Origin: Sphaerosporella brunnea
Taxonomy: Eukaryota; Ascomycota; Pezizomycetes; Pezizales; Pyronemataceae
Assembly: GCA_008704415.1 (NCBI GenBank)
Contig: VXIS01000094.1
Span: 1 to 64,000, forward strand
DNA length: 64,000 nt
Reading direction: 5' to 3'
Shown: in pieces, positions 1-37,133 of the stretch
How positions within the stretch are numbered: position 1 is the stretch's first letter
Layout of the letters: every line of letters begins with the position of its first letter
Translations under genes and position numbers: made by a program
The notes under the pieces: generated by a model
Told to the model about the DNA's origin: nothing
The model's input: the letters and a program-made list of their open reading frames with translations, nothing else
Databases searched by the model: none

Positions 1-174
1 ATATTGGACTCCCGACTGCATGGACGGTGGCGTAAGCTCCAGTATTTGGTCAAGTGGACCGGCTACGATCGGCCGAAGTGGGAACCAGCCGAGATGGTCA
101 ATGGTCTGGAAGCTATCGATCGCTTCCACGAGGCCTATCCGGACAAGCCGGGGCCTCTGCCGGAAGATGAATGA
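1..174 (+). CDS. Ty3/gypsy polyprotein C-terminus with chromodomain (partial)
   Basis: Frame 1 is open from the window edge to a TGA at 172-174 and gives the last 57 residues of a retrotransposon polyprotein. It has the chromodomain pattern YLVKWTGY followed ten residues later by WEPAEMV, then a short acidic tail. In chromoviruses (Ty3/gypsy) this domain follows the integrase and directs insertion toward particular chromatin. The stop is followed by a purine-rich tract and an LTR at 209, the expected order for the 3' end of such an element. The rest of gag-pol lies outside the window, so whether the element is intact cannot be judged. Confidence 0.85.
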   Translation: MLDSRLHGRWRKLQYLVKWTGYDRPKWEPAEMVNGLEAIDRFHEAYPDKPGPLPEDE

Positions 175-208
175 GCTTCGCCGGAGCTCAGCCGTAGGAG
201 GGGGATAC

Positions 209-1398
209 TGTCACGGCGCGAGTTTGGATGGAGTTTTCCGACTAAGCTACCGGCTTTTACTCTCAATGAAATCGGCTGGAACTCTCAGATCTAAGGCTTC
301 AAAGGATGCTGATTCATTTGCTGTTCTCAAATTTACCCCCCCGTTGATGGTTGTCACGTGGTGAGGTTCGGAAGTGGGGGTTGTTTGTGGTGTCGTGATG
401 AGGCTCTGTAGGGGGACTCGGTGGGGTGGCTCCGAGCCGAGGTTATATTCGGCTACCACGTGGCGCGGCGCACCGCAGTCACGTGATTGCTATAAGGGGC
501 CTTCGCTTCCGCTTTGTTGTTTGTTTTCCCTTTCCTCTTTACTGAACCTTCGTATGTCAATCTGAGTACCTTCGTTCCAATCTGAATCCTGACCGTGCGC
601 ATCGCGCCTCTTGTCCTGCCTCTTGTCCTGCCTTTGGATCTTGTCCCAGCTCTCGTTCTTGCCCCCTCTGTACGCGAGTACCTTGGGCCCCTCCAGTCTG
701 TTCTCGACCCTCTCCGTTACATTCTCTTGGCGGAAGCAATCCTACTTATAGTAGAACGCCGCTCCAGAGACTATCGTCTCCCTGAGTAATACTCAGCCTT
801 TACTCCTTGCTGGCTTTCCGACAGTCTCTACGACTGCGGGCGTCAAGGCGCGCACAGAGATCGCCCCACCTTCCTATAACTCACTCTTTGATTCCAAATC
901 ATGAGTCATAGACATGGGTCGCACCCGGATACCCCCCTCCGTAAGCGTTGTATTCTCGTGTTGCAGGAAGATGCTCAGCCCTATTGGCTCTATCTACCGA
1001 TCTTCTGCGTCGCATGCCCTACGCAACAACCATACTTACTATGGAGGTTCTAGGCCGAGGGATTCTTCCCTTTTTCGGCTCTACGCCTTCCGGTTGATCA
1101 CTCCTGACCCCTCCGATCGTCATGCTAGTTCCTGGAACAGGCAGGTCAACGAAGATATCTCGGAAAAGCTCTAACAATAGCCTATACTATTGTTATCTCC
1201 GAACCGGATGCTCTTCCCAGGTAGCGTCCTACCTAAGGTACCCGATCTCCGAGTTCTTCCATAGCGTCACTCAAGCTAGCTACTATGATCCGGAGCCACC
1301 CGGCTATCACGTGCCCTCGAGGCGATCACTATGCAGACTCTATTCTATTCCCCTAGCTGACTACTTAGAGTACATGTCACGTGACCATACCCGTGACA
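209..1398 (+). mobile_element. 3' long terminal repeat of the Ty3/gypsy element
   Basis: A polypurine tract (GGAGGGGGATAC, about 197-208) is followed by TGTCACGG at 209-216. The matching inverted end CCGTGACA lies at 1391-1398, giving an LTR of 1190 bp with perfect 8 bp TG...CA-type termini. A TATA-like CTATAAGG lies near 490. It directly follows the chromodomain ORF, so it is the 3' LTR. The 5' LTR is off the window, so the target duplication (expected CTCTG at 1399-1403) cannot be confirmed. Confidence 0.8.
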
Positions 1399-1767
1399 CT
1401 CTGCCACTTTGGCAATGAGCGGCTCTGTGATCTCGGTCATCAGTCTGAGTATACGGCCTGTGTGTGTTTCGAAGCCGGCATCTAGGCGGTTCAGGTGGCC
1501 GGACATGGCCTCTTTGACGGCGTCGTGGATAATCTCTGCAAGTTTGTTGTTTCTGGGCATTTCCTGGCGTCGGCGCTTACGCGACTCCGCGAGGGGCTGG
1601 GCCGGCGGTCCATCAAAGGCGGTCGGGGTGCTGAACCTGCTAAAGTCCAGAGGGTTGCTTCCTGTAAGGCCAACCTCTATGCCGTCCATTCTGTTTTGGC
1701 TGCCCAACTGGGACGACTCGATCGGGTCAGACGGATCCTCCATAGGAGGTGTGACGATCGGATCCAT
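1399..1767 (-). pseudogene. Unknown ORF truncated by the LTR retrotransposon
   Basis: A reading frame starting at 1767 runs leftwards for 123 codons and then crosses into the LTR at 1398, so its original C-terminus has been displaced. The visible part has a Pro/Asp-rich start (MDPIVTPPMEDPSDP), a basic patch (ESRKRRRQEMPRNNK) and an amphipathic helical stretch that could form a coiled coil. That layout fits a retroelement gag or LINE ORF1 but no family motif is seen. A second insertion into an already mobile sequence is plausible but unproven. Confidence 0.4.
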
Positions 1768-2893
1768 GAGGCTGCGCGTTCTAAGGTGTCGCGCGCCCTT
1801 TGTCCGGATTTGCCCGCGCGCTCGTGAGCGGCAAGCGAGCTTGAAGCTTGGGTGTTGTTCGCGATGTTAGTTTTGGGCCAATCAGAGTTTGACACGTCGC
1901 GGCTTGGCGTTTCCAAGCACGGAGCGTTTTTTTTTTTAATTTTAATCATAATGTATTCGGCCGCTTGCGGCCATGACATATGGTTGTATACAGGAAGTCT
2001 ACCCTTGGACCTCAGGTGTCCACAGACGGGCGTGACTTGGTAGGCGCACCAAGGAAATCCGCAGCTGGTAAAAGGCAACAAAGGGAACAAAAAAGCACGG
2101 AGCGTGTGAGGTGTGTGTGTGTTGTTGTCTTTTGCGGTGGCGAACTTTATGGGAGTTGTCTAAGCTCTGAGTGAGTGTCTAGACATCACTGAGGGAGCTT
2201 TTCGAGCCATAATCTGTCTTTCGGGGCGCGACTGAGAACACCGCGTTGCCCCCAGCTGCATGTGCAGCTCGACCTGAAGATGATTCTGGTTTGGAAGACG
2301 TAAAGTCTGTGGAGGCTGCGCTGATCCATGCCGGAGTCCGCGGCTGACTATTGCGGCAACAGCCTCTAGGCTTTGCAGAATTTCGGAATCCAGCGGAGCG
2401 TGGTCCGTCACCAGCGGTTGAGCGGGTGGGTGGAGCAACTTTTATCGAACACGCCGCGCAAATTTGTGAATGCCACGGCCACGACGAGGGTACCAGTGGC
2501 CCAAGGCCGTCAAAGCTGACCCTTCGTGGGGGGGCCACGAGGTCACAACTGTTCACGACGGACAAGGCGACCTGGTGGAAGGATTATCCTGCGGTTCCCT
2601 GGAAGCATCGAAGCCTCACGCTCGACGTCCTCCGCGAAGCTGACGGCCCGGTCAATGGGGATGCCATCAAGACTCTGAAATTTCGCGAAGGCTCACGGGA
2701 AACTATTCATCATGGGGTTACGTTACATCGATATGCGCGGGTGTGCCTGGGACCGTACTTTGCCGCGACCGCCTGTGTGATTCGACCAGAACTGACCTTA
2801 TTCAACCTGGATCGACCTATGTCAACCTGATGCACGGCGTGACTGTAAATGCCACAGCAGCGTCCGCCTTTCCACAACAAATCTGCCGCCACC
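1768..2893. other. Intergenic, upstream of the interrupted F-box-like gene
   Basis: No recognisable gene. A 159-codon plus-strand frame (2351-2830) and overlapping minus-strand frames have no family signature and compete with one another, so none is called. The last 700 bases should include the promoter and leader of the host gene that starts at 2894. The bases just before that ATG (GCCGCCACC) match a strong Kozak context. Confidence 0.4.
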
Positions 2894-2912
2894 ATGGCTC
2901 CGAACAACCCCT
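2894..2912 (+). pseudogene. 5' stub of F-box-like host gene, split by a transposon
   Basis: ATG at 2894 in the context GCCGCCACCATGG begins MAPNNP and stops being host sequence after 19 bases, where the 10.5 kb transposon begins. Joining 2912 to 13394 (that is, removing the element and one copy of the 3 bp duplication CCT) continues the frame as SSTTLTLESLPFDI, the F-box-like region at 13394-13926. The host gene is therefore disrupted in this copy of the genome, unless the element excises or the downstream part is used on its own. Confidence 0.75.
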
Positions 2913-2913
2913 A

Positions 2914-2948
2914 CCCGAGCATACAAGCGATCCGTGTCGTACGGAATA
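2914..2948 (+). repeat. Left terminal inverted repeat of the 10.5 kb transposon
   Basis: Begins CCCGAGCATACAAGCGATCC. It matches the reverse complement of 13356-13390 at 34 of 35 positions (T/C difference at position 27). Outside it lie A (2913) and the target duplication CCT (2910-2912). Confidence 0.9.
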
Positions 2949-2979
2949 AAAAACAAACCCCAAACAAACGGAAAAAAAA

Positions 2980-3225
2980 ATCCCGTAAAAAACCCGTAAA
3001 ATATCCGTAAAGACAATCCGTAAAGCACAGATTTACAAGAGGATGGAAACCCGTCCAGAACGGGTGGCACGAGGGGAAAGAAATCCGTAAATGACAGATT
3101 TACAAGAAGAAGGAAACCCGTTCAGAACGGGTGGCACGAGTGGGAAGAAATCCGTAAAGAACAGATTGACAAAAAGAAGGAAACCCGTCCAGAACGGGTG
3201 GCACGAGTGGGAAGAAATCCGTAAA
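2980..3225 (+). repeat. Left subterminal repeats: CCGTAAA motifs and a 67 bp tandem array
   Basis: CCGTAAA recurs at about 2984, 2994, 3004, 3018, 3085, 3152 and 3219. From 3016 the spacing becomes regular: three 67 bp units (3016, 3083, 3150) and the start of a fourth (3217). Each unit contains ACCCGTCCAGAACGGGT, an imperfect palindrome, and about four CpG sites. Position and layout suit binding sites for a transposon-encoded DNA-binding protein. The internal minus frame 3549-5800 encodes a candidate. The binding role is inference. Confidence 0.85.
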
Positions 3226-3548
3226 GGACGGAAGATGAAGAATAAAAAATTCTGTTTGAAATACGTAGAAAGCGGGCAAACGAAAGCGTATATACATATA
3301 GAAACAAATATAAGACAGTATGAAAAGGTTTAAAAAAAACCCGTCCCAGAAAGAAGTAAAAGGAATAGACTTGACTGGTACCTTCAGCATCCCGAATCGT
3401 CCTGCCTCACCCACCCATTACAAAAATAAACAAAATAAAAATAGTAAAAAAAAAAAAAAAAACACAAAACACTTAAAGAAGGTTGGGACAGTGAAAACAG
3501 CAGAAACAAGCTAAAGCATAACTATGTAAGATTATCCCTGCACTAAAA
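3226..3548. other. A-rich left flank of the transposon interior
   Basis: No gene. An A-rich segment with a run of about 18 A near 3450 lies between the subterminal array and the stop codon of the AT-hook gene. It probably holds that gene's 3' untranslated region. Confidence 0.4.
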
Positions 3549-5800
3549 TTAATTTGATGTACGAAAGACTGGCAGATAAGGTAATACCTCAACAGTTTTC
3601 AACGTTTGTAGACGTTGAGCATGGATTGTTCGAGCAGCCTTTGTGGAGGTAGTGCGGAGTCGTTTGGTAGTTCGTCCGGCCTCAATACTAGCCTGTTGGA
3701 CTTCAGTTGAGGTAAAACGCTTTGTTCTAGTTCGGGAACGTGGCGGCGGAGTTGGAAACCGTTCAACAATATCACGAGCCCGCTTACGAGGACGTTTTCG
3801 AACAGCTGGCGGTGATGGAGATGTGTGTGAAGTTTGACGGTTGGGAACGGGAACTAAGGATGGATCCAAAGTATTGGTAGTTGTTGAAGGAAGAGGAACA
3901 GGAGTAGTAGGTGCAGAATATGAAAACATTGTGATCTAGAATAATAGAAGTTAATACTGATACTAATAGTCAACAAAGTGGAACAAACGTACCTTTTCCA
4001 AATGGACAGCATGAAAGTGTGGATCCAGAACAACCTGTTCACGTCGAACACGATCAAGAAAGATATTATAATCCTCAACAAGATCAATATCACGGGCGAT
4101 AATCACTTCACGGTGACTGTCACCATTGGTAAAAACATGATATCGGTATCCAGAACCGGAATCAGGTACAATTGGTGTAGGTTGATAGCATTGAACATGA
4201 GTGTCGATAGTATCGATCCATTCCTGCATAGAATACTGAAAGTGAATCTGGAGACAATGACCCACAATACAAGCCTCATAATACGGTTCATGCGTGGAGT
4301 CATCTAAGGGTAAAGTAGTAGTCGGCAAATCTTGGACAGCCCGTGTGATTGGAGTGTAACCGGAAGATGTAGAAGGTAATCCAGAGTAGTGAGGCGATGC
4401 CAGTTGTGAAGTAAGAGACTGTGGATGCTGTGGACTAAAAGATGAGGAAGAAATACCAGCATCTGTTCCAACGGACCGTCGAACTAAAGCATGATGTTTA
4501 TCACTAAACATCGTCGTAGGTCTGACCCGAGTGGTGGAAGTTCGGGAAGCAACAGCAGCAATAGGAGGACGCTGTGTACGTCGAACTGTCACAGATCCCG
4601 TCACCAAACCAGAGGATGACTGCTGTCCAGAGCTGTGACTGACAGACCGAGAAATATCTTGTGAACATGGTGTAGGTGAAGGACTCGTTGGAGTTGGTGC
4701 AATCGGTATGGGACCACAATTATGGTCAAATAACAGCCTAGAAGAACGAGCTTTTGGGGGCCGTCCGGGTTTGGCTTTGATACCTTGTGCAGCTTGCTCC
4801 TGAAGTATACGTCGACGTCCATTTTCTCGATTCCGTCGGATGATATCCTTTAGTACAACAAGTACCAGATCTTTGGTCCACTTGTAAGGAGCCATATAGT
4901 GGAGGACAGCTATAAACAGTAGTTAATATATGCCTGAATATAAGGTAAAAGAACATACCAGAAATCATACGCTCAACCAAACCAGGTTCCTTTCGATAGT
5001 CGGTCCAGGTCTCGCGAAGAGTGACATCAATTGTAGCGCAGCATACTTTCACCTTACTCCTCATAAGACGTGACTGTCTATTTTGTTCCGCTTTGGGTAA
5101 ATCAGCACTGATACCCATGCGACGTCGTAGCAATGCTTGGCTTGGATTCCGCCACCATGGCTTGTGATGATCAGAAGTAGAAGGTAATAATGCAGCATCA
5201 GGAATTTCGGCATCTGAGTTGTGTTCCGAATCCACGGCATAGTCAGAGTTGAGGTCAACATCCAGCTCATCATCGGAGGTGGGGTAAAAATGCTCGGAGT
5301 CTAGTACAAGAGGATCAGTTAGAGCCATATAAGTATAAAACTCGAAGATAGTAGTAAGACAAACCATAGTCTGTGATAGCATCACTGTTGCCAACAGTAT
5401 CAGGAGAATGATGTGCATCATTTGATGGATCCGTTGTCTGCTTAGCATGGTGTTGTGCAAAAACTATGTCATGTAAGCGGCGATCGTTAACTATGGTGAA
5501 AATATGGAGACCAGAAGGACGAGCAACAGATTGAGTCTGTTTTGATGTTATATCAGGCGGTGCAGGAAATGACTCCAAAAGAGATGCAGGTAGCAATGGA
5601 CTTGAACGGAAAGTTGTTGAAGCCGACGATGTCGATGTAGATGGCTATCACAAATTGTTAGAAAGCACAATGACAAACGAATACAAGCAAGACAATACCG
5701 CCGGATGAAGTTGGCGTGCAAGAAGTTCACCCTGCATTTGCTGAAGACAGCGTCGTAATTCTGTCTGTGATAATTTAGAAAAATCAATACCGGACATCAT
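3549..5800 (-). CDS. Transposon-encoded AT-hook protein, five exons
   Basis: Five minus-strand exons fit in phase: 5800-5699, 5644-5365, 5300-4959, 4909-3993 and 3935-3549. The introns are GT-AG, 49-64 bp, each ending TAG. The product is 675 residues. Around residue 290 the sequence KAKPGRPPKAR is an AT-hook (Gly-Arg-Pro core in a basic setting) that binds the minor groove of AT-rich DNA. It follows a Trp/Lys/Arg-rich segment (YKWTKDLVLVVLKDIIRRN). The middle is Ser/Thr/Pro-rich, and the C-terminus is very basic with SRTRTKRF-type patches that could serve nuclear import. No catalytic domain is recognised. It is transcribed away from the transposase across a shared 525 bp spacer and lies nearest the left repeat array, so by analogy with Spm TnpA it may bind the element's ends. 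That role is inference; the gene model is strong. Confidence 0.8.
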
Positions 5801-6325
5801 ATAGTAAAGATATAGGTGGTTTAATAAAAGCAGTGATGAAAGTGAATTTGAATTGGAATGTAGAGTTTAATGGTGATGAACAAACTGGAAAGTGATAAAG
5901 GACGTGAGTGTGGGAAAAGACCGTACAAGAAGTATTATAGGTGGCAAACATGGTGGGTATCGATGAGCCTAAAAAAGGTATGGTGTCTTATCACAAGCAC
6001 AAACATGTGGCTGATTTCAAATGATAGTCGAGAAGATTCCACACAAAAGCATATGATACAAGCATATCACTGCTGCCAAATTGTTAGTCCAAGTTTCAAG
6101 TTCGCGACAGTGTGTTGAATAGTACCAGTAAAATCAAGTACAACCTTCCAAGTACAGAAATCCGTGTCTGTACGGAATGCGAAGCCACCTTACATGCATA
6201 TAAATTGACGATAAGCTGAGCAATGTACGTTACCTGGCAATGTACGTGTGGAGTGATGTTTGCCACTGATTTCATACTTGAACGTATAGATACTAACATT
6301 ACTGTTTTGAACAATCAGCAATCAA
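5801..6325. promoter_or_regulatory. Divergent promoter between AT-hook and transposase genes
   Basis: A 525 bp spacer separates two start codons pointing outward. It is AT-rich, and the overlapping ORFs in it look accidental. One bidirectional control region would link expression of the accessory protein and the transposase. No particular promoter element is assigned. Confidence 0.5.
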
Positions 6326-9300
6326 ATGCAACGACGATGGACGAACAACCTCACCATGATAAAGCCACAAAGCCAGACTGTCAACGGCCGTAAAGAACGT
6401 CCAATATTACAGCCACCCGTAGCATCGGTGGATAAGACAGTGGCACCGATTGCACCCCTATCGAACACGGTAGAACCAATAGCACCACCACAACATCAAT
6501 ACCGTTCAAGCCAAGCCAGATCTATTGTGTCAAACATAGCTGGAGTACCATCATGTATACCGGCAAAACGTTCGATGGACGATGAGCTCAAATCTGGTCA
6601 TCCAGTAAAGGCTATACCGAATAGTGTGGAGAGAGGTTCACCTACACATACCTCAAGTAATGCCACCCGAAATTCGTCAGCATACAATACAAATTCATCC
6701 ATCCAGCAAGCTGCAGCAGATTCGGAAGGGGACAAATGCATACCAATTCAAGAAATAGTGTCACATCGTTTTAATCTTGATGAGTTAGATCAAGTAACGA
6801 CAGCTGGCACGATTTTCAATTACGGAATCCTACCAGCACTCCATCTTGATGAGATTATATCTGTTGCTCTCTATCAAGTGAAAACAAGATGTAATGTAGC
6901 CTTGGATACACATCTTGAGTATTTGGATATAGTTCGATCCCTTCTTGGCTGTACAGTGCAAGATACCCGGACGGTGGAGGCGCTGCTGGAACGTATCACC
7001 GGTATAACCCATCAAAGATATGATGTATGCAAAAATGGCTGTGTCTGTTTTGCCTTACCGGAGTATCGAGACATGACGAACTGTCCAATCTGTCATGAAA
7101 GTCGACATGATCTGAAGGGTATGTACCGTTAAATTGTACACCTATAATGCAAGTTTATAATAATAATATCTGATAGGCAATCCTCATCAAACCTATGATT
7201 ATGTACCCTTGGTACATCAGTTACAGCTCCAATATGCGAATCCGCAAAGAGCAGTCGACTTGGTACGATATCGTCAAGATCTTCATCATCAAAAAGCCAA
7301 TGATACAGCCTTTGAACCATCAACATTGCGAGACATCTGGGATGGTAAACTATGCCAACAACTCCAACAAAATGGGATGTTAACTGCCGATACCGATCTT
7401 GCTCTGGCTCTGTCCACAGATGGTGTGGAGTTATTTCGTAAGGGAAAGACACATCAGGTCTGGCCTATTATACTGCAATGTTATAACCTTGCACCAGAAT
7501 ATCGCTTCCAGGAAGACAATATTCTTTGCAGTGATGTTATTCCAGGACCGCACAAACCAAAAGATATTCATTCCTTCCTATATCCCACCATACGGGATTT
7601 GAAGATACTCCATAATGGAGTTCAAACATATAATGGTGCCACAGAGTCAATATTTGATCTTCATGCATATGTGGTGGCGGTAACTGCAGACATGCCTGCA
7701 AGAGATATGTTGATGGGTTTATCCGGTTATAACTCTCGACATTACTGCAATTATTGCACAATTCGTGGATGCTCAGGGTACAAGTCAGCAGGAAATGATC
7801 AAGATGATTGTTTCACCGGGGTGGCATTGAATACATCATATGTTCAGCAATGCACCGAGTCTGATATCGATGATGATGTTACATCCTATATGTCTGGAAT
7901 GGAGGAGGAGTCAGCCAATGAACATTCTGCGAATGCGATAATGCACGAATGTCTCACCGCTAAAGCTGTACCACATCGACGAGGTACACATATGTACTGT
8001 CCGCTCAAACCACCGCAAGATGTGCCAAACGATTCCGACTGGCGTGAATATGATCCCACAAATCTTCAGCTTCGTTCCCACACTCAAGATGGGATGACTG
8101 CAAAGTACTTTGATACACGCCATCCAACCTTTCATGATTCAAGAGGTGAAAACAATGCTGCTACATCAGCTTCAGTACACCCTAATCAAACAAAGGCTGG
8201 TCGCCGTCAAATTACCTATACATCAGGAATTCAGAGCTGGTCTGGATTATGGGATTTACCGTCACTTATTTGGCCGTGGTATGTTTTTTGTTCAATGGTC
8301 TTCTCTGATGAGTAAAGATGAACATTGCTATAGAATTGTACTGATTGATTCCGTTTTTGTTGTAGGAGCTTTCCCATTGATGGTATGCACTTGTTTTACC
8401 TCAATGTTGTACCTGGTATGCGGGACCATTGGCAAGGTAATTTCTTTCCATGGGAACGACAGTCCGGTGCCTTTGGAACTGCACAAAAAGCAAAGCATAA
8501 GCCAAGTGGTGAACCGTATTGTATTTCTCCACACGATTGGACATGTATCGACAAGGATATCCGATTGATGGTACAACCTGCTGCTTTTGGAGACCGGATC
8601 CAAGGAGTTTCTGATATTCGGAAAGCCAATCAGTGGAAGTCTTGGGCTCATGTTATATCACCCATTGTTTTAAAGGACCGTTTGCCTGAGCCATTTTACT
8701 CCTCCTGGCTTCGTTTCGTATATGCAATCACCATTGCAATGGACTATTCTATCCGCCAAGATGATATCAGCCTTATCAGACAATCTATGGTGGATTTTGT
8801 CAATCATTATCATGACACTTATTACCGCTTCCAGAATCGCCGGCTGCCAGCATGTCGAGCTGTGTTTCATGCATTATTGCATGTTGCAGATTGTATAGAC
8901 TGGTTGGGACCAATGTGGTCGTATGCACAGTGGACAACGGAACGGATGGTTGGACTCTGGACCTCCAAGGTTAAACAACGAGCATCTGCTTCCCGAAACT
9001 TGTCCTTAGCTATGTTACGGAGTTCTTGGATTAGCAACCTTCGATATAGTTCAAACTTAACCTCACCATATAGTATTTCATCCTCCCAACCGTCGTGGGT
9101 CACTACTTTCGATGACTTTCGAGATGATAAGGATGGTTCCATACGGCCTACCGGTATATCAACCCTCCTAAAAAAACTCAGAAACCGTACCGAGCATGAT
9201 GAGGATGGTACTAGGGAACGTACCAGTCGTTATCTCACCGATTCCAACCATCAAAGTTCGCTTCATCATATGATGCACCATTCAAAGCTGCTCACCGTGT

Positions 9301-9902
9301 TGCAACTGGTTGACCTCCATTCCTACCTGGTCAATTTGCATCTTACTTTTCCTTCCACTGTCAACTTCCATGTTGAGACCATGCTTGGCAATAAACGTCG
9401 TAAACGATCAGATGCTTTGACCGGTGTCCCTGTATCTGCTTGGCAGAAATGTCTGTTGAATGATCCAAGTACCTCACAGACCGTCTATCGTACGTATATA
9501 AGATCTGCTGCCTATGAGAAGATTGATGCCCGAAATGCTACACACATTCGATATGAAATTCTGAATGATGGATTGGATTCCAATGGAAATTACATTAGCC
9601 GTTCTGTCAGTAAGTTTGGCTGTGTCCAATTCTTCTGTGCATATGATGCTGTTGAATTATCTTCAGGCAATTCAATGCGTGTACTACTGGCTTGGGTTGA
9701 TGAATTGCCAGTTGTTTCGGAAGCAACAGCTGCTGGTTTGCTTTATCGTCTTCATTCAACTTCCATGTCGCTGTCCGGATCTAATCTGTCATACTTTATT
9801 AATGTTGATGACATTTCCTGTCTGATGGGACTTGTCTCTGTAACGGATGGTCATGATTCCGTTGCACAATATCTTGTTGAGAAGGATTCCGCATTTTTGT
9901 AA
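6326..9902 (+). CDS. CMC-superfamily (Plavaka/Tnp2-like) DDE transposase, three exons
   Basis: Exons 6326-7118, 7177-8278 and 8366-9902 join in phase (introns 58 and 87 bp, GT-AG) to give 1143 residues without a stop. A zinc-binding cluster CKNGCVCF...CPICHESRH (C235, C239, C241, C253, C256) matches the N-terminal cysteine motif of Tnp2/Plavaka transposases. The core follows in order: LSTDGVELF (D346), VTADMPARDMLMG (D436) followed by HYCNYC, PIDGMHLFYLNVVP (D637), and QWTTERMVG (E824). These are the usual acidic landmarks of this superfamily. The C-terminal third, with YEILNDGLDSNGNYISR, is also family-like. It would cut and move DNA bearing the terminal repeats at 2914 and 13390. The first 180 residues are low-complexity and the start could be at M11. 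KDZ-type motifs are absent. Confidence 0.9.
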
Positions 9903-10268
9903 TTGCCGTTGCTGTTGTCTTCGGGTTGTACTGCTTCCTAGTAATGTATTGCTGTTGGCTTTGAAGTGAACGTACGTCTGGCTGGATTGTTGCTGTGTTC
10001 ATACTGTATCATATTCTCTTGTTTCTGTGCATATCTGTCAGCATATTGATATTCTGCCAGTTTCGGTGTTGTGTCATGCGCTTCTGTGCTTTGTATTGAC
10101 CTTCTGTGTGTTGTACCTTCATGTTTCTCGAAACCAACAATGTCATCTATCATACATCTTTCATCCAGCCAACGTCAACCTTTTTTCACTATTGTACTCA
10201 ACAATCACTTTGCACGAACATATTATACTGCATCTCTTCTTTTTGTTCCTCCCGTATTTACTCTGTTT
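9903..10268. other. Convergent 3' spacer between transposase and dioxygenase genes
   Basis: 366 bp separate the two facing stop codons. T-rich, with no gene. Expected to contain both 3' ends and poly(A) signals. Overlapping transcripts from the two strands are possible here. Confidence 0.5.
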
Positions 10269-12161
10269 TTAAGAATGATCCTTTCCCATATCTTTTCCCA
10301 TATCCTTTCCCATCTCCTTTTTAATATCCTTTCTCACATCCTCCGGAAAGGTAAATACCCATGCATATCGATTGTCCCCTCTCCATTTTGTTGTAAAATG
10401 CTCTACACATTCTCCTCTGATACCAATAACTGCACCTGGCTGAAAGACAAGCTTTCGCTTGATCAGAGGAATGCAGAATAATCCACCTGTATAGTCCCCA
10501 AAGGGAGTGATCCATGCCCATCCTTTGATCCAATCCATATGGTCCATATGAGGCTCAGTCAAGACATTGATCAGGAGAGCTCGATAAGCAAACAACTCTT
10601 CATCAAAGGTTTCTGCTACTCGTCGATCCCCTATGTTTTTCAATGCCGCATAAGTTCTTCTGTATTCATCTCGCAGTGCTTTGTCCACATCTGCAAAACA
10701 GGCGTCAATGGTCTGGGTAATGTTTCCACACCAGACTTGTAGGTTCCGGATTAATGTTCCATTGTATGTACCGTTTGCATTCAGGTCTTTGGACAATCCT
10801 GCTTGGGTCCTTTTATGGCCTTGCTCTCCTTTTATTCCAAAGTAGTAAATTCCGGACCTAGCATCTGGACCTGCCGCCCAACTATAACGTTGGTTTTCCT
10901 CTTCTTGACGCCACTCCTGACATCCACCATGACGTCTAGTATCCATACTTTTGTGAGGTTTGACAAATCGTGCCACTTTATCGATGTTCTCTGTGGTTAC
11001 CTTCACAATGTAATGTCCGAGGTCTTTTTCCCAGGCCCTTTCAAAGGCATCATGATAGAGGGCGATAATAGGTGTAAGGTTCTTGTCCATTGCTATGTAG
11101 CTTTTGCCTCGTTCAATTTCTTCATATGTTTCGGCATTTTCCAGTGCAGTGGCCATTGGCGTTCCTTTTGCTGTGCTTTTCTCATTATTGAGATCGATGT
11201 TGAAGAATACTTCCACAATTTTATCCCTTCCGGTGAATCTCCAGGTCTCTGCACCTGCTTTTTGTGCAGCTTCTCTCTCGGCAGCTTTGGATTTACTTAT
11301 GCCAAAAAATCCATTGAAGACTTTGGCCCGATCACCATTTGGTTTCAACTTAAATACCTCGGTATTTAATTCTGCCTTTGAATCCTCTCTGGCAGCTGAC
11401 CAGCGGTTGGGTGGCCATGGATAGGGATATGGTGGCATCCGTTGAGTTCTTCCACCATGGGTTGCCTGATCATCGTTATTGTTGCTTAACTCTTCAGGCT
11501 TCAACGTCCACATCCAATCAGGAACAATGTGCCGGTACGGTGTCCTTGCATGCTCAACTATGTCCGGACGGAGCTTTTTGTTGCCCTTTCCTTTTAAGAT
11601 ACGCTCTTGCCTGTCGGGATGTATCCCTTCCATGTTGTTGGCATTGTTTGGACAATCCACGGGTATAGTGTCATTGCTGATATGGAGTGGTATGGTATCG
11701 GCTGATGTATACTCTCTGGAATCCTGATCATCAACAATCCGATTGTTGCTTTCCTCGGGGTTGTTCTGTTCTTCCCTGGACTGTTTTCTCTTTTGCTTTT
11801 TCTTCAATTTTTTGCCTGGGGGTGCTGGCTGTGTCCGCTTTGATTTTTTCAACTTCTCGGTATCGTCTTTCATATTTCGGATTTCCATTTGTGTTAAATC
11901 TCTCCATTCTCCAGCATTGTCCCACTCTGAAGTCTTTACCCACACTCTTCGTCTATAATCTGGTCGAATATACCCAGGTTGTTCCTGTCTTGCATCCGGT
12001 CCAAACACTGCTTTTCTTGTATCCATCGTCTCGGATGGATTTCCTGCCTTCTCCGCTTCAAATTGCCACGGTGTTGCAGACTCCGGCCTGCTGGTATGTA
12101 CAGCTTCTGGCTGTTCAGACTGGATTTGGTGTTCGGCCATAGTATGGTATCGACGGTGCAA
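10269..12161 (-). CDS. TET/JBP-like Fe(II)/2-oxoglutarate dioxygenase (5-methylcytosine oxidase type)
   Basis: One uninterrupted 630-codon frame. Residues 1-270 are low-complexity with a strongly basic, nuclear-signal-like patch at 116-128 (GKKLKKKQKRKQS). Residues about 290-610 form the catalytic part: EPHMDHMDWIKGW gives the HxD metal pair (H538, D540) with a further D543, then GDYTGGLFCIPLI, FQPGAVIGIRGECVEH (distal metal ligand H588) and DNRYAWVFTF (R598 for 2-oxoglutarate). The spacing HxD, 48 residues to H, ten to R is that of the TET/JBP core as I recall it from Naegleria Tet1, and D543 falls where a base-contacting Asp sits there. Family members oxidise 5-methylcytosine or thymine in DNA. 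Fungal relatives have been reported inside transposons. Here the gene lies tail-to-tail with the transposase inside the same terminal repeats. A related start at 12140 (second Met) is possible. Substrate is inferred from family only. Confidence 0.85.
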   Translation of the reverse strand: MHRRYHTMAEHQIQSEQPEAVHTSRPESATPWQFEAEKAGNPSETMDTRKAVFGPDARQEQPGYIRPDYRRRVWVKTSEWDNAGEWRDLTQMEIRNMKDDTEKLKKSKRTQPAPPGKKLKKKQKRKQSREEQNNPEESNNRIVDDQDSREYTSADTIPLHISNDTIPVDCPNNANNMEGIHPDRQERILKGKGNKKLRPDIVEHARTPYRHIVPDWMWTLKPEELSNNNDDQATHGGRTQRMPPYPYPWPPNRWSAAREDSKAELNTEVFKLKPNGDRAKVFNGFFGISKSKAAEREAAQKAGAETWRFTGRDKIVEVFFNIDLNNEKSTAKGTPMATALENAETYEEIERGKSYIAMDKNLTPIIALYHDAFERAWEKDLGHYIVKVTTENIDKVARFVKPHKSMDTRRHGGCQEWRQEEENQRYSWAAGPDARSGIYYFGIKGEQGHKRTQAGLSKDLNANGTYNGTLIRNLQVWCGNITQTIDACFADVDKALRDEYRRTYAALKNIGDRRVAETFDEELFAYRALLINVLTEPHMDHMDWIKGWAWITPFGDYTGGLFCIPLIKRKLVFQPGAVIGIRGECVEHFTTKWRGDNRYAWVFTFPEDVRKDIKKEMGKDMGKDMGKDHS

Positions 12162-12842
12162 CTTTTGGAAATGATTTTCACCGGTCTCCTGTATTCTTAT
12201 CAGTATCTTTCAGTTGACAACATTTGATATTGTGTTTCTGCTTACTTTGCTTCTCAACAGTTGCAGGGTATTTTCTTATCCGTCTAGCTCCTTCACAATT
12301 TCAACTTCTTTCACTGTGGATTTTGAATAGCCTTCCGAGTCCTGGGTAGCCTTCAGTGTCCAAGTAGCCTTCGGGATCCTTGGTAGCCTTGTGGGTCCTG
12401 GATGGCCTTCCGGGTTCTCGATAGCCTTTGGAATCCTGGGATAATGTTCTAAATCCTCATTAGCTCCTTACTAAAATTTGGCAGCATTTCCCCCTATATT
12501 TTGCTTCGCCAACATTGATCGGAGGCCTCATAATGGCACTCTTCTCTGTTGGGAGCTGGGATTATTCTTACCTTACTCCTCCGCACCAAATGTGGTGTGT
12601 TTCCTCTGGCTTATGAGCAGCCGGTCTCCTTAGCCTCCTCTTCCTGGTACCCGAAAACTCTCTGGCACAATGCCAGTTGAAGGTCTGACCTGTGGGCAAG
12701 CCCACGTTGGGGAGACTACGGCAATAACAGCTCGCAAGCGAACTCGTTATACCTCCTCAGGTTTTCAAGCACCAGTGATGTCTTTAGCGCGGATAGGGTG
12801 ATTGTGGTGATGGTGTTGATGGGGGTTGTTGAGGTGGGTTCG
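12162..12842. promoter_or_regulatory. Dioxygenase upstream region and right subterminal repeats
   Basis: The minus-strand dioxygenase is presumably driven from here. At about 12325-12441 a degenerate 20 bp unit of the type TAGCCTTCGGGATCCTTGG recurs six times. Further right are short hairpins, CTGGCACAATGCCAG near 12662 and GTGGGCAAGCCCAC near 12692. These lie inside the transposon and mirror the left-end repeats in position but not in sequence. Confidence 0.6.
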
Positions 12843-13200
12843 ATGCTGGACACGACCTGGGTACGGAGCAGAGCAGACTGGGCGTGCTGGGAGCGCGTTG
12901 GTAGCGGGTTGGTAGCTGGCAGCAGGTTAATGGCTGGCAGCAGACTGGATGCTGGACACGAACTGGGTACGGAGCAGAGCAGACTGGGCGTGCTGGGAGC
13001 GCGTTGGTAGCGGGTTGGTAGCTGGCAGCGGGTTAATGGCTGGCAGCAGACTGGATGCTGGACACGAACTGGGTACGGAGCAGAGCAGACTGGGCGTGCT
13101 GGGAGCGCGTTGGTAGCAGGCTGGTAGCTGGCAGCGGGTTAATGGCTGGCAGCAGACTGGATGCTGGACACGAACTGGGTACGGAGCAGAGCAGACTGCT
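12843..13200 (+). repeat. 106 bp tandem array at the right end of the transposon
   Basis: Units begin with ATGCTGGACACG at 12843, 12949, 13055 and 13161, a constant 106 bp period. The last unit is cut short. Each unit has about six CpG sites and internal GGTAGC/GGCAGC repeats. Long ORFs across it arise from the repetition, and because 106 is not a multiple of three they change frame each unit, so none is called. Confidence 0.9.
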
Positions 13201-13281
13201 CGTGCTGGGAGCGGCAGCAGACTGGAAGCGCGTGCTGCGAGCGAGTTCAGTGCTGGGGCTTGCAACCCGTCCCACTACGTA

Positions 13282-13926
13282 TTGTCTGCATCTCACCCGT
13301 CTGTCGCGGTTTTGCACACTACTCGGACTTTTTCTATCCGTGGTTGTACGGATATTATTCCGTGCGACACGGATCGCTTGTATGCTCGGGCCTCCAGCAC
13401 CACCCTGACCCTCGAGTCCCTGCCTTTCGACATACACGTCGAGCTGCTCGCCACGCTACTCTCGACGCAAGGCATCGCCATCGGGCACTCCTACGAGTGG
13501 CATCTACTGCCATTGCTGGTCGCAAGCCCCAAGATCTGTCTGGTCTGGGACGCCAGCCGGACCGCGATCCTGCATCGCGTAGCAGCCGAGCAGCTGGCGC
13601 GCCTCAAGTACGATGCTCTCACCACGCGAAGCAGCTACGTACGCGCGTTCTTCAGATTCAAGGCGTGGCAATCCCTCGTGCAGCTACGCCCTGAGCACGT
13701 CCGGGATCGTTGCCAACCGCTGCGTGCTGCCGCGTTGCGGGAATATGACGATGCCTGGCGCGATTACAGTGACGTTCTTGTCGCGGTGTTGAATATTAGA
13801 TACTGGCTGGTGCCGCCGTATAATCCGCCCAAGCTCGAGTGGAGTAGGAAGCTTCCGATGTTTCGGCCGCACCTCGGACCAGGGAGCATCAGCAGGGTGA
13901 CTAGTCCTGTATACCGATATTTCTGA
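13282..13926 (+). pseudogene. F-box-like host gene body, now fused to transposon end sequence
   Basis: Host sequence starts at 13391. Its frame reads SSTTLTLESLPFDIHVELL, then LVASPKICLVWDASRTAIL, which resembles an F-box (LPxDI...ELL, later a conserved VCxxW-like site). F-box proteins link substrates to SCF ubiquitin ligases. About 130 more residues follow with no repeat domain recognised, ending at TGA 13924-13926. The native start is at 2894, beyond the transposon. In the present arrangement the frame stays open back into the element to an ATG at 13282, so the terminal repeat contributes 37 foreign N-terminal residues. Whether that chimera is made depends on transcription from the transposon end. 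The C-terminus could be extended by an unrecognised intron near 13900. Confidence 0.65.
13356..13390 (-). repeat. Right terminal inverted repeat of the 10.5 kb transposon
   Basis: The reverse complement begins CCCGAGCATACAAGCGATCC and matches 2914-2948. It is followed by the target duplication CCT at 13391-13393. Confidence 0.9.
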
Positions 13927-34167: not shown

Positions 34168-34239
34168 GTCGGTGTAGTATAGTGGTGAGTACAGCTCGTT
34201 GTGGCCGAGCAGACCCATGTTCGATTCATGGCACCGACA
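34168..34239 (+). tRNA. tRNA-His (GTG)
   Basis: A full 72-base cloverleaf folds: acceptor GTCGGTG/CACCGAC, D-stem GTA/TAC with AGTGGTGAG in its loop, anticodon stem GCTCG/CGAGC around TTGTGGC (anticodon GTG at 34201-34203), T-arm CCATG-TTCGATT-CATGG, discriminator A. All stems pair perfectly. No intron. A T7 run about 30 bases downstream (near 34264) is a good polymerase III terminator. An identical copy lies at 36995-37066 on the other strand. Confidence 0.95.
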
Positions 34240-36867: not shown

Positions 36868-36994
36868 CCATCCGAATAGGCGCCGGCGGCTATGGCTACA
36901 GCTGCGCGACAGTAACTTGGTACTCCTCTGCCAGCCCAGCAAAAGAAAGACTACGAAGTGCAAAAAGAACAACCAGACTGGTCAAATATGTAAC

Positions 36995-37066
36995 TGTCGG
37001 TGCCATGAATCGAACATGGGTCTGCTCGGCCACAACGAGCTGTACTCACCACTATACTACACCGAC
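36995..37066 (-). tRNA. tRNA-His (GTG), second copy
   Basis: Identical in sequence and fold to 34168-34239 but on the minus strand. Acceptor GTCGGTG at 37066 inwards, anticodon GTG, discriminator A at 36995. Its downstream flank is also shared with the first copy, with a shorter T5 run in place of T7. Confidence 0.95.
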
Positions 37067-37133
37067 ATGTGATATGCGTTTGGACAATGCAATGTCCATT
37101 TTAAAAAGAGAAATCCTGGCAACACAAAAAAAC

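Follow-up and report, generated by a model that had tools for sequence, protein, structure and literature searches.

The window analysed here is a stretch of 64,000 nucleotides from contig VXIS01000094.1 (C635 in our numbering) of the cup fungus Sphaerosporella brunnea (Pezizales), an ectomycorrhizal species with a published draft genome of 51.6 Mb in 872 contigs according to the excerpted genome report (PMC6908789). At positions 2914-13390 it contains a complete and intact-looking transposon of 10,477 bp, in which an AT-hook-type accessory gene, a Tnp2/CMC transposase gene and the gene of a TET/JBP-like 2-oxoglutarate/Fe(II) dioxygenase lie between inverted ends. With a confidence somewhat above even, we read it as an autonomous-looking Tnp2/CMC transposon that has a TET/JBP dioxygenase as regular cargo and is predicted to oxidise its own 5-methylcytosine (5mC) against silencing.

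The element, its insertion site and its relatives in the genome

A first-pass annotation of this stretch had described one mobile unit that combines an AT-hook protein, a CMC/Plavaka-like transposase and a TET/JBP-like dioxygenase. The ends, the Transposase_21 match and the match to the fungal enzyme CcTET agree with it. Some details of its borders required correction: the inverted ends are present, measured at 36 nt from position 2914 rather than 35 bp from 2913, and the 3-bp duplication (CCT) flanks both sides, with the left copy set off by an extra A instead of directly abutting the repeat (Table 1). In the genome searched (50.6 Mb, 640 contigs), where our searches score the best candidates only and a count of zero refers to these, the end 14-mer CCCGAGCATACAAG has 25 matches and its reversed control pattern has 0, and a chance inverted repeat was rejected because of this difference.

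When the flanks are joined at a single CCT, an open frame of 183 amino acids (aa) runs from 2894 to 13926, and the insertion point lies six codons past the start of this host-family gene (2894-2912 / 13394-13926). No Pfam family was found for the interrupted gene, which has 24 further matches of its family in the genome, several per locus in some cases. Three of the five other left-flank matches (C22, C556 and C44) run on into the right-flank protein match with a spacing of 2-3 bases, as expected of a site that has a single CCT and lacks the element, judged by positions and not by letters; in the remaining two (C201, C312) the flank pieces are not exactly aligned. The paralogous genes without insertion confirm the boundaries of the window element. 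On this evidence and that of the joined flanks, the inserted DNA is best read as 10,477 bp of element preceded by the extra A and followed by one copy of CCT.

Table 1. Positions of the element's features and of the gene that it interrupts, numbered along the window.
Feature	Position	Strand	Remarks
Target-site duplication CCT, left copy	2910..2912	.	One extra A at 2913 between CCT and inverted repeat
Left terminal inverted repeat, 36 nt	2914..2949	+	Begins CCCGAGCATACAAG; 97% complementary to right end
Left subterminal tandem repeat, 67-bp unit x 3.3	3009..3229	+	CCGTAAA motifs; putative binding sites
AT-hook-type accessory gene	3549..5799	-	Exons 3549-3929, 3966-4895, ~4990-5300, start near 5799; joints predicted
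Tnp2/CMC transposase, 1143 aa	6326..9902	+	Predicted introns 7119-7176, 8279-8365; Transposase_21 E 3.1e-24
TET/JBP-like 2OG-Fe(II) dioxygenase	10272..12161	-	630-aa open reading frame from TTG; convergent with transposase
Non-coding stretch upstream of dioxygenase	12459..12776	-	~68-75% identity to dioxygenase loci C579, C24, C400
Tandem repeat, 106-bp unit x 3.5	12842..13213	+	Inside right end
Right terminal inverted repeat, 36 nt	13355..13390	-	97% complementary to left end
Target-site duplication CCT, right copy	13391..13393	.	Abuts right inverted repeat
Remainder of interrupted host-family gene	13394..13926	+	Start codon at 2894, across element

Twenty of the 25 end matches form 10 facing pairs, all with the terminal type CCCGAG..CTCGGG (window included): four of 10.4-11.1 kb, namely the window element, C420, C446 and C523, and six of 0.94-4.1 kb. 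The first-pass annotation had asked whether the dioxygenase is always inside other copies, and this holds for all four full-length elements found, which carry the transposase and the dioxygenase in the same convergent arrangement. As to the opposite outcome, same-ended copies that never include the dioxygenase, the six of the 10 pairs that lack it are short and have no transposase match either (0/6 among the matches of the transposase or dioxygenase protein searches; five were read through, and C248, of 4121 bp, at its right part only). The other five end matches are single. Among them, C543 and C579b are copies cut by contig ends in which both genes are still present, C131 has the transposase on a contig that ends before the expected dioxygenase position, and C302 and C410 are single-end remnants in which no gene was seen. 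At a further locus, C418, a window-type transposase in broken pieces is accompanied by a fragment of a dioxygenase from the window's clade; the gene order is unlike the others, and element ends were not found. A perfect, abutting 3-bp duplication is present in seven of the nine same-ended elements with both flanks read (GTG, CTT, CCA, CTT, TCA, CCT and GGT, with GTG at C420, CCA at C446 and CTT at C523); the remaining two are the window element, with its extra A, and one 2155-bp copy, which has no duplication.

C420, C446 and C523 are mutually ~98-99% identical and show 64-72% identity to the window element in alignable parts. Their transposases share 58-59% identity with that of the window (452-456 bits; the next lineage, 142 bits), and the ends and the transposase together place the window element as the sister of this C420 family. 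The transposase model, with two plausible GT-AG introns at predicted splice sites and no stop, was chosen among 32 open splice models, and the Pfam family Transposase_21 (tnp2) also matches the sister family (E 1.7e-24). On inspection of the 1143-aa model by eye, D (STDG), D (TAD), CNYC, HALLH and E (TTER) follow one another in the order of the D, D, C(2)C, H(3-4)H, E landmarks of the CMC/CACTA clade, given by Kojima (PMC12730594) for EnSpm, Plavaka and related transposons, and the 3-bp duplications fall within the 2-5 bp of that clade. The AT-hook-type gene had no Pfam match in the pieces scanned; it shares 34-46% identity in aligned parts with open reading frames of the sister family, in which its AT-hook-like K-x-GRP-x-K core is kept. 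By raw counts, the terminal 300 bp of each full-length element hold the motif CCGTA/TACGG 7 times on the left side and 2-4 times on the right, vs 0.13-0.45 times per 300 bp inside (for the window element, 7 in the first 300 bp vs 0.45).

This layout resembles that of the plant En/Spm-CACTA elements, which combine a Tnp2 transposase, subterminal repeats, a 3-bp duplication and methylation-sensitive ends with a second, repeat-binding protein, a place that the AT-hook-type gene and the CCGTA subterminal repeats would fill here. In the plant elements TnpA relieves methylation; unlike the window element, they carry no dioxygenase.

Identity of the dioxygenase

The open reading frame of the dioxygenase begins with TTG, and an ATG near 12140 (~623 aa) is the more likely start. 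In a sequence search against 177,635 PDB sequences, the top matches of the window protein were CcTET of Coprinopsis cinerea (8jkk/7vpn; E 2.1e-4 and 2.3e-4), followed by an unrelated one at 0.28, and profiles of 15 and 22 sequences recovered CcTET at 4.9e-4 and 3.6e-4 and nothing else of weight. Wider homologue searches, aimed at Tuber, Morchella or Agaricus PE-type proteins, gave 19 relatives in all (one search among the best 8000 candidates), and those with an organism name are from S. brunnea (3) and Tricharina praecox (1). The H-x-D...H...R motif (H343, D345, H393 and R403 in the numbering of alignment A3) is present in all 21 covering rows, one of the 22 rows falling short of the motif. 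In such enzymes, H-x-D and the distal H are the Fe(II) residues and R the 2-oxoglutarate residue. The 13 dioxygenase open reading frames listed for the genome comprise 11 with HxD, 2 with YxD and 0 with HxE.

Several results count against a TET-type demethylating enzyme. The Pfam family PF12851 (Tet_JBP; curated cut-off 34.9 bits) gave no match in the window protein, and a genome search with it matched none of the window dioxygenase family. At the CcTET positions Gly331 and Asp337, the two residues that Kojima names for catalysis on 5mC and N6-methyladenine (6mA; PMC12730594), located here through an ungapped alignment, each of the 21 covering sequences has Asp and Ala/Thr, respectively. Furthermore, in C523 and C543 a Tyr replaces the first iron-binding His in a frame that is still open; these may be catalytically dead copies or have another role.

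As to Pfam, relatives of the window protein were matched weakly by PF12851 in 4 of 15 (best 7.8e-5) and 4 of 10 cases (best 7.1e-5, all below cut-off), and the only Tet_JBP match in the genome (C51:3248-3637, E 2.4e-6, below cut-off) is not among the matches of the window dioxygenase family. Pfam was rejected as a test of TET identity, being too insensitive for this family. The first-pass annotation had named kinship with non-TET 2-oxoglutarate enzymes as fatal to its proposal, and no such kinship emerged in the PDB search. Because CcTET is the sole credible solved relative and H, D, H and R are kept, and setting this against the Pfam miss, we conclude on the protein sequence that the window dioxygenase is a divergent TET/JBP relative. 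CcTET itself is a remote one (22-23 bits), sharing catalytic-core homology, the H-x-D and the distal H with the window enzyme; because the equivalents of Gly331 and Asp337 are replaced, substrate and product may differ from those of CcTET.

Dioxygenase lineages and their genomic neighbourhoods

A tree of the dioxygenases was built from 27 rows, leaving out P0002, P0011, P0012, P0014 and P0018 (same locus as a genome row, near-duplicate or short) as well as the genome pieces C579b, C24b, C30, C513 and C224 and weaker matches, with broken copies represented by single open pieces. In this tree, the window enzyme belongs to a 100/100-supported clade with the enzymes of C579, C400 and C24, joined next by C430 and then by C112, and the C420-family dioxygenase is in a different clade. 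Forcing the window and C420-family enzymes together cost 147 log-likelihood units (approximately unbiased test, p 1e-6), and forcing them together with P0015 cost 58 (p 4e-4), both groups having been named after the tree was seen. Because the likeness with C579, C24 and C400 extends into the non-coding stretch upstream of the gene, a cassette of dioxygenase and control region seems to have moved between elements, and the data support a module, made up of the dioxygenase and its upstream stretch, that different types of transposon exchange.

The neighbours of the related dioxygenases differ from locus to locus. At C579 (99248-108476), the family dioxygenase has a RecQ-like DEAD helicase and a DUF6589 protein as its neighbours, and weak matches to DEAD and to the RecQ zinc-binding domain were found near the dioxygenases of C400 and C430, respectively; these three neighbourhoods possibly belong to a further TET-carrying mobile element, and a literature search found no link of DUF6589 with transposition. 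At C112:1-9500, a PIF1-like helicase frame (E 5.4e-15) lies ~4.5 kb from a family dioxygenase, and the locus is perhaps a Helitron, possibly the Helitron-1_SpBr of Kojima. The C24 dioxygenase is found beside a different Tnp2 transposase. Of the remaining Tnp2 loci that the genome searches recovered, C24 (in two near-identical copies) is alone in having a dioxygenase match nearby, C418 holding broken pieces of both. In the stretch examined, the C24 dioxygenase locus showed no terminal inverted repeats above 14 bp. The two C24 copies (1-12776 vs 56000-68776) are inverted duplicates of each other over 12.8 kb or more, with 99.8% identity and including transposase and dioxygenase, for which a recent duplication or an assembly effect is possible.

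Proposed role and relation to known systems

Between dioxygenase lineages, synonymous differences amount to 0.61-0.91 per site vs 0.16-0.39 for non-synonymous ones, and because of this excess selection is judged to have maintained the dioxygenase over long times. That the enzyme is a captured passenger, riding along without a role in transposition, appears very unlikely to us: such cargo would agree with the swapping of dioxygenases between elements and with the broken active site of some copies, but it sits poorly with the long-term synonymous excess, with the H, D, H and R kept in 21/21 covering sequences, and with the repeated association of the dioxygenase with unrelated transposon-type genes.

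Among three C420-family copies, C>T (or G>A) differences affect 27 of 1001 CpG positions (2.7%) vs 42 of 3833 elsewhere (~1.1%; odds ratio 2.5, p 4e-4), a CpG decay of the kind that methylated CpG is expected to leave. Four matches to DNA methylase (PF00145) exceed the cut-off in the host genome, spread over three contigs. For a soybean CACTA element with a Tnp2 frame, higher methylation is described as accompanied by an apparent loss of transposase binding to the subterminal repeats (PMC4219821). Because of the CpG-bearing end repeats, the CpG decay, the host DNA methyltransferases and the soybean analogy, the most likely reading is a transposon carrying an oxidase that would remove or alter 5mC at the ends of the element and in its promoters; the demethylation role is what we infer from the first three of these, and the steps from enzyme activity onward are inferred as well. 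The dioxygenase would oxidise methylated cytosine on the element, chiefly in the CpG-bearing CCGTA end repeats and the promoters; this oxidation would relieve the silencing of the element and permit end binding by the transposase and the AT-hook protein.

The same element could instead carry an enzyme that makes another modified base (for example by acting on 6mA or thymine, or as a hypermodified C), marking or protecting the element DNA rather than demethylating it. We regard this as unlikely, though less so than the other rivals considered here. The replacement of the CcTET Gly331 and Asp337 residues in 21/21 covering sequences speaks for it, and Kojima, in the part of the paper available, allows another activity for divergent types, recalling CMD1 and JBP (PMC12730594); on the other side, the CpG decay of the sister copies points to 5mC as the mark present, and a Pfam scan, which covered pieces of the element, picked up no partner gene for base modification.

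To the points raised above against a self-demethylating transposon, others have to be added. The CCGTA enrichment at the right end of the window element is slight (2 in 300 bp), the C446 transposase carries an insertion, and the recent C420-family dioxygenases have non-synonymous to synonymous ratios of 0.39-1.33 with few changes and no clear purifying selection. In addition, the short same-ended elements have spread without the dioxygenase, for which help in trans is possible. Taken further, this leads to a dioxygenase that acts mainly in trans by lowering methylation genome-wide, to the profit of short same-ended copies and of the host. The six short elements without dioxygenase, the four kinds of neighbourhood that hold the family in one genome, and the oxidised 5mC reported also on retrotransposons in Coprinopsis and Laccaria (PMC12730594, in part) are in line with it. 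We hold it to be quite unlikely, as a benefit to the carrier accounts better for a dioxygenase inside every full-length copy that was found.

The first-pass annotation had taken KDZ transposons as the known case of TET/JBP carriage. This contrast is outdated, because TET/JBP genes are reported in 11 DNA-transposon lineages including Plavaka, with escape from silencing already proposed (Kojima, 2025; PMC12730594, of which we draw on parts, here and below). The KDZ group (Kyakuja, Dileera, Zisupton; Iyer et al., 2014, via PMC12730594) shares a transposon-borne TET/JBP gene with the window element, and membership in it was rejected on its 7-8 bp duplications and unrelated transposase, vs 3 bp and Transposase_21 here. 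The Plavaka carriers named in that source are from Agaricus bisporus and Gymnopus confluens, and the carriers of Pezizomycotina are Helitron and IS3EU only; the latter, in Pezizomycetes, share the host group with the window element and differ from its Tnp2/CMC machinery (PMC12730594).

PlavakaB of A. bisporus and G. confluens comes close: its transposase is of the CMCT clade, related to EnSpm, and shows C(2)C and H(3-4)H, its duplications are of 2-3 bp, and it has an internal TET/JBP gene; compared by description, it differs in its ends (CATCA..TGATG), its PE-type HxE and its hosts (Agaricales), against CCCGAG..CTCGGG, HxD and Pezizales here (PMC12730594). By its ends, the window element was excluded from Plavaka A and B (TGT..ACA or CATCA..TGATG) and from fungal EnSpm (CAC..GTG), and the CCCGAG terminal type is one that fits none of these three as described there. 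The enzyme was likewise excluded from the PE type, having HxD instead of HxE in 21/21 covering sequences, a separation that follows Kojima's description and not a sequence-to-sequence comparison, and from the AG type, to which CcTET is close (PMC12730594), by the lack of the Gly331 and Asp337 equivalents in 21/21.

Relative to Kojima's main text (PMC12730594), a Tnp2/CMC carrier in Pezizomycetes, the CCCGAG ends, an HxD lineage unlike the PE type and the replacement of the dioxygenase within a transposon family look new, although the supplementary tables may hold an element of this kind. A bolder proposal, which we advance tentatively and at well below even confidence, is that these enzymes may represent a fourth transposon-borne TET/JBP lineage, H-x-D and Pezizales-centred, beyond PU, AG and PE, travelling as an exchangeable cassette in an undescribed CCCGAG group of the CMC clade and adapted to the removal of 5mC from subterminal repeats that contain CpG, which would make methylated ends usable by the transposase.

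Transposons with a demethylation-type enzyme make visible an arms race of mobile DNA with genome methylation. Here, one genome holds elements with the same ends, related transposases and two dioxygenase lineages, and the enzyme family also occurs near several unrelated transposon-type genes. This makes it a natural setting for two questions: does the enzyme work for the element that encodes it, and does it have to fit the ends with which it travels?

Elsewhere in the window, two tRNA-His genes (anticodon gtg) lie on opposite strands at 34168-34239 and 36994-37067, ~2.8 kb apart.

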